From Myxococcales bacterium (GTDB lineage: Bacteria; Myxococcota_A; Polyangia; Polyangiales; Polyangiaceae), in the NCBI GenBank assembly GCA_023248735.1, contig JAHFDY010000029.1:1-34156 (forward strand): 34,156 nucleotides of DNA. Reading direction: 5' to 3'. How positions within the stretch are numbered: position 1 is the first letter of the stretch; every line of letters begins with the position of its first letter. Shown here in pieces: positions 5,780-7,501 of this stretch. The translations under genes and the position numbers were made by a program. The notes under the pieces were generated by a model that had not been told where the DNA came from, searched no databases, and was given only the letters and a program-made list of their open reading frames with translations.

Positions 5780-6886
5780 TCAGTGCGCAGCAGGCGCAGG
5801 CGGAAGCGACAATAGCTCGGCTCGCTGCTCCACGAGGTGCCACGGCAACTGTGCGTAGACATCGTCGAAGAGGGTTTCGCGCGGCATCATCGGAAGCGCT
5901 TCGACGCGGTTGACCGCATCCGCAATCTCGCGCGTGAGCTCTGCTTCGAGCTCCGCATCCTGCTTGTCACTGAGCCAGCGCTCGTGCATGAGCGCCTTGC
6001 GCAGGCGGTCGAGCGGATCTTTCTTCGCCCATGAATCGACTTCGGCCTGGCTACGGTAGCGCGTTGGATCGTCACTCGTAGAGTGGGCGCCCATACGGTA
6101 CGTCACCGCCTCAACAAACGTTGGCCCGTCGCCACGACGCGCGCGGTCGCATGCTTCGGTGAGCACGGTGTGAACGGCGATGAGATCGTTGCCATCAACG
6201 CGCACACCTGGCATCCCATAGGCGATGGCCTTTTGCGCGATCGTCTCGGACGCGGTCTGGCGCGACGTCGGAACGCTTATCGACCAACCGTTGTTCTGGC
6301 AAACGAGAACGGCCGGAACCGCAAAGACGGCCGCGAAATTCATGGCCGCGTGAAAGTCTCCCTGGCTCGTCGCTCCATCGCCAGCAAATCCGATCGCAAT
6401 CGATGAGGCCCGACGCAGCTTCATCGCCCAAGCCGCGCCGACTGCGTGGGGAAGCTGGGGTCCGATGCACGAGGACCAACTCACTTGGTTAACTTGCTTA
6501 CCCGATTGGTGGCTCGGCATCTGCCGACCCTTCTGCACGTCACCACTGTTGCCAAACACCTGCGCAACAAACGCGTCGAGCGAGAACCCACGCACGAGCA
6601 TCACGGACTGTTCGCGTAGCGCCGGGAACACCCAATCGTCTTCCTTCAGCACAAGCCCCGTAGCGATTGGTACAGCTTCTTGACCATGTGCCGCACCATA
6701 GAAACCGATTCGCCCCTGACGTTGCAGAAGGATCATGCGCGCATCGAGCACACGAAGGCGCTTCATTTCGCGGTACGCACGCAAGCCAAGTTCGCGCGTG
6801 AACGTCGGCGCGAGCGACCAGTTGGCCTTTGAGCGATCGTCGAGAACGCGAAACAACCCGAGGGCACGATTTTCAGCTTCCGGCAT
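5780..6886 (-). CDS. Thiamine-diphosphate-dependent 2-oxoacid dehydrogenase E1 component, alpha subunit
   Basis: Alpha subunit of the heterotetrameric E1 that decarboxylates pyruvate or branched-chain 2-oxoacids with thiamine diphosphate. In the 368-aa product the TPP motif runs from GDG at 169-171 to NN at 198-199 (GDGATSQGDFHAAMNF, then CQNNGWSISVPTSRQ). The active-site loop is RMGAHSTSDDPTRYRS, near 268-283. HSTSDDPTRYR favours a branched-chain (BkdA-like) enzyme over pyruvate, but sequence alone does not settle it. The matching beta subunit and the E2 acyltransferase are absent; only lpdA follows. Its upstream region is occupied by the IS5-like mini-element, whose left end is 38 bp before the ATG, so its promoter lies in that short stretch or inside the element. 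Confidence 0.92.
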   Translation of the reverse strand: MPEAENRALGLFRVLDDRSKANWSLAPTFTRELGLRAYREMKRLRVLDARMILLQRQGRIGFYGAAHGQEAVPIATGLVLKEDDWVFPALREQSVMLVRGFSLDAFVAQVFGNSGDVQKGRQMPSHQSGKQVNQVSWSSCIGPQLPHAVGAAWAMKLRRASSIAIGFAGDGATSQGDFHAAMNFAAVFAVPAVLVCQNNGWSISVPTSRQTASETIAQKAIAYGMPGVRVDGNDLIAVHTVLTEACDRARRGDGPTFVEAVTYRMGAHSTSDDPTRYRSQAEVDSWAKKDPLDRLRKALMHERWLSDKQDAELEAELTREIADAVNRVEALPMMPRETLFDDVYAQLPWHLVEQRAELLSLPPAPAAH

Positions 6887-6920: not shown

Positions 6921-6924
6921 CTAG
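6921..6924. repeat. CTAG, left putative target-site duplication of the mini-IS
   Basis: CTAG abuts the left terminus (GGTC) and is matched by CTAG at 7214-7217 next to the right terminus. CTAG fits the YTAR target consensus of IS5-group elements. Confidence 0.6.
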
Positions 6925-6939
6925 GGTCCCTTATTTCTC

Positions 6940-6964
6940 ATCCGTAAACGTGCCCGTGCCCGAA
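6940..6964 (+). repeat. Left 25-bp inverted repeat arm of the mini-IS
   Basis: Exact reverse complement of 7167-7191. It contains CGTGCCCGTGCCCG. It is separated from its partner by 202 bp. Confidence 0.95.
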
Positions 6965-7021
6965 AATCGGTGCAGCAAATTTTGCCATGATGGCGTGAAT
7001 GTGAGCAGTGGCGCTGCCACG

Positions 7022-7126
7022 ATGGTTCGACTTCAACTCAACGACAGGCAGTGGACGAAGGTCGCTGCGATCCTGCAAAGCAAGCGGAGAGCTGGGCGGC
7101 CTATCGAGCCGCTCGTGGTCCAATAG
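7022..7126 (+). pseudogene. Truncated IS5-family-like transposase N-terminus
   Basis: The frame encodes 34 aa and then a TAG stop. It begins MVRLQLNDRQWTKVAAIL and has a GRP turn (KRRAGRPIE), matching the usual opening of IS5-type transposases (an LTDxQW element followed by a GRP turn). It lies about 97 bp inside the left end of the mini-element, where a transposase gene normally begins. The DDE catalytic region is absent, so it cannot be active. The similarity is short, and chance remains possible. Confidence 0.5.
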
Positions 7127-7166
7127 CATGCGGTGCAATCGGCCCGTCCACCACGAAGGTTGCGTC

Positions 7167-7191
7167 TTCGGGCACGGGCACGTTTACGGAT
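7167..7191 (-). repeat. Right 25-bp inverted repeat arm of the mini-IS
   Basis: Exact reverse complement of 6940-6964. It is followed by an outer part that ends in GACC next to CTAG at 7214-7217. Confidence 0.95.
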
Positions 7192-7213
7192 CAGAAAAAT
7201 ACGAGGACAGACC

Positions 7214-7501
7214 CTAGGGGGCCGAAGCGGGTGGAGAAGGCGCGACCGCCGATGCCGACTCGGCGGGAACCGCTGGAGCGCCATCGCGCCGAAACCGAAA
7301 TCGAGGGCGTGTATGTCCGCCAAACGGATCGCCGGCGCCTCCTGCGGCCCCGCCCGAAGCCGCGAGCGGATCGACGGCTACCGTCGCCGCATCAGGCTTT
7401 GAGGGCTCCCCCGACGTTTCGCAACCCGCGCATCCCGCCACCGGGACAAGCACGACTGCCACCGCGAACGTGAACGCGAACCGACTGATCAAGTTTGCCA
7501 T
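7214..7501 (-). CDS. Small Ala/Pro-rich lipoprotein, unknown function
   Basis: A 95-aa predicted lipoprotein. The signal peptide MANLISRFAFTFAVAVVLVP is followed by the lipobox VAGC (C24 acylated). The mature part is low-complexity, rich in Ala, Gly, Pro and Ser, and ends in PSPPASAP, as expected for a flexible surface or periplasmic tail. It starts 13 bp after the stop of the 270-aa lipoprotein on the same strand, so the two are probably co-transcribed. Its TAG stop lies inside the CTAG flanking the mini-IS. No enzymatic motif is seen. Without a conserved domain this call rests on the signal peptide and the spacing. Confidence 0.65.
   Translation of the reverse strand: MANLISRFAFTFAVAVVLVPVAGCAGCETSGEPSKPDAATVAVDPLAASGGAAGGAGDPFGGHTRPRFRFRRDGAPAVPAESASAVAPSPPASAP

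Follow-up and report, generated by a model that had tools for sequence, protein, structure and literature searches.

A probable IS5-derived mini-element with the first codons of two convergent genes beside the E1-alpha gene of a Polyangiaceae bacterium

The window analysed here, a stretch of 34,156 nucleotides (positions 1-34156), contains on its minus strand a gene for E1-alpha (5780-6886; PF00676, E 2.6e-88) and a small lipoprotein-like gene (7214-7501). Between the two, a pair of CTAG tetranucleotides (6921-6924 and 7214-7217) encloses 289 bp (6925-7213). The E1-alpha start is separated from the left CTAG by 34 nt and from the enclosed element by 38 nt, and the right CTAG holds the TAG stop codon of the lipoprotein-like ORF. 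Within the element an inverted repeat (6934-6964 and 7167-7197) is complementary at 30 of 31 positions, with its arms 202 nt apart; no second inverted repeat of more than 24 nt was found in the 34-kb window at an arm distance of up to 400 nt. The original prediction had described a CTAG-flanked element of this extent, its position relative to both neighbouring genes and a perfect 25-bp repeat core (6940-6964 and 7167-7191), all of which are borne out, the core being contained in the longer arms. CTAG itself occurs 14 times in the window, as compared to approximately 31 occurrences expected from trinucleotides; such scarcity is common in many bacteria.

The left CTAG is presumed to be a target-site copy, and CTAG also starts the copies found in the source genome and in relatives. 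It is followed by a left IS5-type end, GGTCCCTTA (6925-6933, plus strand), and by the left repeat arm (6934-6964, plus strand), which contains the hexamers GTAAAC (6944-6949), GTGCCC (6950-6955) and GTGCCC (6956-6961). The right arm (7167-7197, minus strand) contains GGGCAC (7170-7175), GGGCAC (7176-7181) and GTTTAC (7182-7187) and borders the right IS5-type end (7198-7213, minus strand), which reads GGTCTGTCCTCGTATT inward and matches the GGCCTGTCCC / GGCGTGTCCC ends of full-length relatives. Compared with the terminal inverted repeats common to these full-length elements, the right end is matching and the left end is shortened, by ~8 nt relative to the right. The inverted repeat had been taken for terminal arms; the repeat itself stands, but it does not form the IS terminus, being an inner pair of hexamer arms that is absent from plain insertion sequences of this type.

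Between the arms, an ATG at 7022 opens a plus-strand frame that continues to a TAG at 7124-7126 and encodes the 34-aa peptide MVRLQLNDRQWTKVAAILQSKRRAGRPIEPLVVQ. Codons 1-27 of this frame (7022-7102) constitute a remnant of an IS5-family transposase, which meets a second gene remnant at ~7100-7103. The latter comprises, on the minus strand, the first nine codons (MLLDHERLD; 7103-7129) of a four-helix-bundle (4HB) gene, as judged from homology to TIGR02436-type genes and from the matching place in relatives, and is accompanied by a 4HB-side leader (7130-7166, minus strand) common to right-hand ends in the genomes G043 and G013. The transposase remnant had been recognized in the original prediction, but the derivation of the right half from this second, convergent 4HB gene had been missed. 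The minus-strand peptide LDHERLD can be aligned with the first codons of 4HB genes in relatives, and the DNA of 7104-7188 resembles 4HB-side right ends in G013 (77%, E 9.9e-5, over 7104-7164) and G043 (80%, E 2.6e-6). Taken alone, the nine 4HB codons gave no profile match, and the 34-aa peptide reached E 0.06 against PF13340, as compared to about 7e-5 to 1e-28 for its relatives. Because the window peptide alone is weak, the identification leans on homologous sequence in these relatives.

Homologues of the peptide were identified at the left ends of elements in nine of 108 family genomes, including the source genome. The single-contig genome G035 contains four copies that start with CTAG (or TTAG) and GGCCTGTCCC, close with the mirrored end and CTAG, and encode a transposase in two overlapping frames. 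In profile searches, parts of these copies matched PF13340 (9.5e-29), PF01609 and, above cut-off, NF033580 (transpos_IS5_3). They share with the window element the CTAG flanks, the GGCCTGTCC-type ends and the transposase start MxVRRQLNDxQW, and the IS5 affinity proposed earlier is upheld by this homology of the peptide to the N-terminus of full-length, profile-matching transposases. In contrast to these plain copies, which contain neither hexamer arms nor a 4HB gene, the window element has both arms and a 4HB remnant, retains only 27 transposase codons and is 289 bp long. CTAG is present on both sides of the window element, of its sister copy in the source genome and of most relatives, and a few copies carry TTAG or CTAA on one side.

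Other relatives carry the two genes together. In G114, a composite element of 1360 bp between CTAGs starts with an IS5-type end and a (GTGCCC)n arm, continues with a two-frame transposase and a convergent gene, and closes with a (GGGCAC)n arm and the mirrored end. The convergent gene encodes a four-helix bundle (TIGR02436, 1.7e-17; PF05635, 4e-19; PDB 2GSC, 4.8e-12). The same layout is found in G111, partially in G043 and G134, and in decayed form in G112, and inverted hexamer arms of the GTGCCC type sit just inside the IS ends in G114, G111 and, in part, G043. An intact transposase was not found in any of the 4HB-bearing copies; by reading, tnpB of G114 has lost one base and tnpA of G111 contains an in-frame TAG. 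Separate deletions, similar to that of the window element, account for the mini-elements in G043 (L047) and G032 (L026/L032). The G114 composite is absent at the same site in its congeners, whose spacers are too diverged to read a duplication. Our literature search, which covered few subscription journals, found no earlier description of the pairing of IS5 with 4HB genes or of mirrored hexamer arms, and the only relevant prior work on 4HB/TIGR02436 genes with repeats concerned 23S rRNA IVSs (PMC4990558).

The source genome (G000) is a draft of 4.39 Mb in 254 contigs with 88% completeness. The original prediction had called for a search for further copies, and in addition to the full-length relatives this search recovered a second two-ended copy (C15:17031-17215) and a solo right end (C170:18473-18521) in the source genome. 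The C15 copy is flanked by CTAG on both sides, is 96% and 98% identical to the window element over two common parts, lacks the region corresponding to ~7033-7143 and has the same shortened left end. The right end, a 49-nt sequence, occurs exactly three times in the source genome, with no occurrence of the reversed control pattern, which places it beyond chance; it is absent from 19 other genomes at up to three mismatches. The convergent gene pair that flanks the C15 copy is present in the congener G001 without the element, an empty site that identifies this sister copy as an insertion, and the counterpart spacer in G001 is too diverged for a base-by-base reading of CTAG duplication. The shortened left end common to both two-ended copies suggests that this form could still move or was copied. 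No NF033580 match was obtained in the source genome and no intact one in the genus, which is weak evidence for the absence of a helper transposase, since copies or a helper may be missing from the draft.

At the solo right end (L011, ~2473-2521), an antitoxin-like (Phd-like) gene is fused in frame, at its 3' end, to the element sequence, and its product terminates in GHGHGHVYGSEKYEDRP. The element sequence also abuts the TAG stop of a gpsA-like gene in convergent orientation; both gene names were assigned by eye. After partial removal of redundant loci, an ORF stop occurs within 12 nt of 24 of the 47 element ends, as compared to 266 of 813 other CTAGs. A preference for stop codons was rejected, as this background attributes most of the effect to where CTAG occurs.

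Based on the homologous sequences, we consider it highly probable (about 0.87) that the 289-bp element arose by internal deletion from a composite IS5-family insertion sequence and is a MITE-like, non-autonomous derivative of it. The ancestral composite would have had CTAG and an IS5-type end at either side, with a hexamer arm inward of each end, the right-hand end and arm mirroring the left; the arms would have enclosed a two-frame DDE transposase and, to its right, a convergent 4HB (TIGR02436) gene. A single deletion would have excised all sequence separating transposase codon 27 from 4HB codon 9. The ends could then have moved solely in trans, as long as a helper supplied an IS5-family transposase, and into CTAG targets; in the source genome, such targets often coincide with TAG stop codons. 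We infer this movement in trans and this order of deletion and insertion, together with present immobility, the last because no helper was seen and the left end is shortened. The non-autonomous, MITE-like character had been anticipated correctly, as the element contains no complete transposase and the family also includes full-length elements whose CTAG ends match. Like MITEs that arise by internal deletion of insertion sequences, it is short, has paired ends and is present in several copies per genome. Unlike them, it retains the 5' portions of two genes that converge and has a shortened left end, and only two two-ended copies were seen. The retention of two gene starts makes this IS5-derived mini-element an unusual one.

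Derivation from a plain IS5 element, in which LDHERLD and the hexamer arms are incidental and the ancestor never had a 4HB gene, would be in keeping with the mere nine 4HB codons left and with the existence in G035 of a plain IS5 free of arms and 4HB. This alternative is disfavoured and improbable, since arms are present at both ends of the window element and at neither end of the G035 type, accompany the 4HB gene in relatives, and the DNA similarity to the right ends of 4HB-bearing copies spans 7104-7188. As a short palindromic repeat in an intergenic position, the element could also be likened to REP/BIME-type elements moved by a RAYT (Y1) transposase, which we regard as scarcely credible: the full-length relatives encode a DDE transposase (PF13340/PF01609) rather than a Y1 (HUH) enzyme, and the ends and CTAG flanks follow IS5.

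The original prediction had further suggested that the element brought or altered the promoter of the E1-alpha gene. This was not supported, as neither a sigma-70-like promoter nor a terminator was found inside the element, and the congeners G001 and G003 keep the same order of lipoproteins, E1-alpha and lpd with unrelated spacers of ~200 nt. These spacers contain other CTAG-flanked repeats and hence offer no clean empty site for the window locus; the flanking CTAGs of the predicted target duplication are real, and the duplication itself is presumed. The repeat in the G001 spacer (L125) is one of a ~140-bp family that gave 14 matches over all four genus genomes, including one member in the source genome (C165:4712-4832), and is unrelated to the window element. 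Several members of this family adjoin apparent tRNA 3' ends. The repeat in the G003 spacer (L124, G003:C115:10186-10290) is a CTAG-flanked palindrome of ~75 bp with three matches, all in G003. As the repeats of G001, G003 and the source genome differ, the E1-alpha spacer has acquired different small repeats in the three species.

Hexamer arms were also surveyed at 4HB loci elsewhere, in family and public genomes, and bracket 4HB genes in several phyla. After removal of units with identical ORF stretches, 126 units had enough flank, and a strict flank scoring (mismatch -2, threshold score at least 16) was adopted after a looser scoring had given high background. Upstream and downstream flanks were complementary at or above this threshold in 44 of 126 units, as compared to 2.5 upon flank swapping between loci and 6 in direct orientation; the figures ignore relatedness and come from loci selected for their resemblance to a single 4HB subfamily, and one high-scoring pair (L187) represents a host-gene duplication. 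In 16 loci, both flanks contained exact hexamer runs of 18 nt or more, with reverse-complement units in 14 and direct units in none. With flanks swapped, mirrored loci averaged 2.0 and never exceeded 7 in 2000 permutations, and control windows away from the 4HB gene, examined with a slightly different length cut, contained no mirrored pairs (0/297). The 14 mirrored loci comprise nine different units, such that the unit varies between loci and matches within a locus. Arm-bearing hosts include isolate genomes, e.g. Roseiconus and Neorhodopirellula, which argues against a pure binning artefact. One locus (L144), from a MAG labelled Klebsiella pneumoniae, contains a 4HB gene 64% identical to a Polyangiaceae one and is probably a mislabelled or mixed bin. 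4HB genes often occur in pairs of opposite orientation, separated by a few hundred bp (G129:C1, G013, G050).

The genes of this family are otherwise known from 23S rRNA IVSs, which are bounded by inverted repeats, contain S23p/4HB ORFs and, in Coxiella, have tandem heptamers ahead of the ORF (PMC4990558). The window element could accordingly be a 23S-rRNA-type IVS or another RNA-processing element, with RNase III cutting the long stem from transcripts, and its predicted fold is very stable on both strands (z -8.0 and -7.2). We consider this very improbable, as any inverted repeat yields a stable fold, the element lies between protein genes and not in a 23S rRNA gene, Rfam gave no match to the whole window, and the IS5 ends and CTAG flanks would not be accounted for. 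Mismatches in 43 arm pairs showed no excess of G:U over A:C (65 vs 69), and RNA-level pairing of the arms was rejected on this basis. Descent from the composite IS5 element remains the preferred reading, with the S23p/4HB systems of Coxiella and Leptospira (PDB 2GSC) as relatives that share the same TIGR02436/PF05635 family within inverted repeats and tandem repeats ahead of the ORF. In contrast to these IVSs, the 4HB gene is here part of an IS5-family element between protein genes, and its hexameric repeats flank it on either side as mirror images. In diversity-generating retroelements, the accessory protein Avd (4HB) is a four-helix bundle of the same fold class; unlike in Avd systems, no reverse transcriptase was seen in the loci inspected by eye.

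Our preferred guess is that the 4HB protein may bind the arm pair of the unit encoding it, and this would account for units that are mirrored yet locus-specific. More tentatively, and with considerable doubt, we propose that stand-alone S23p-like 4HB genes in Polyangia, Planctomycetota and some other phyla may be at the centre of a separate class of small mobile units bounded by inverted hexanucleotide arrays, which might have merged with IS5 in Polyangiales, the window element being a relic of that merger. If true, locus-specific mirrored units would need a process of copying or co-selection between the two arms. The origin and spread of the 23S rRNA IVS gene family have been debated since the 1990s, with an origin by transposition among the proposals (PMC4990558). 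The window element itself is ordinary genomic debris, but an IS5 element carrying a gene of the 23S rRNA IVS family is less ordinary, and if the mirrored arms hold in a larger survey, they would provide a testable handle on the binding partners of 4HB proteins and on the spread of their genes.
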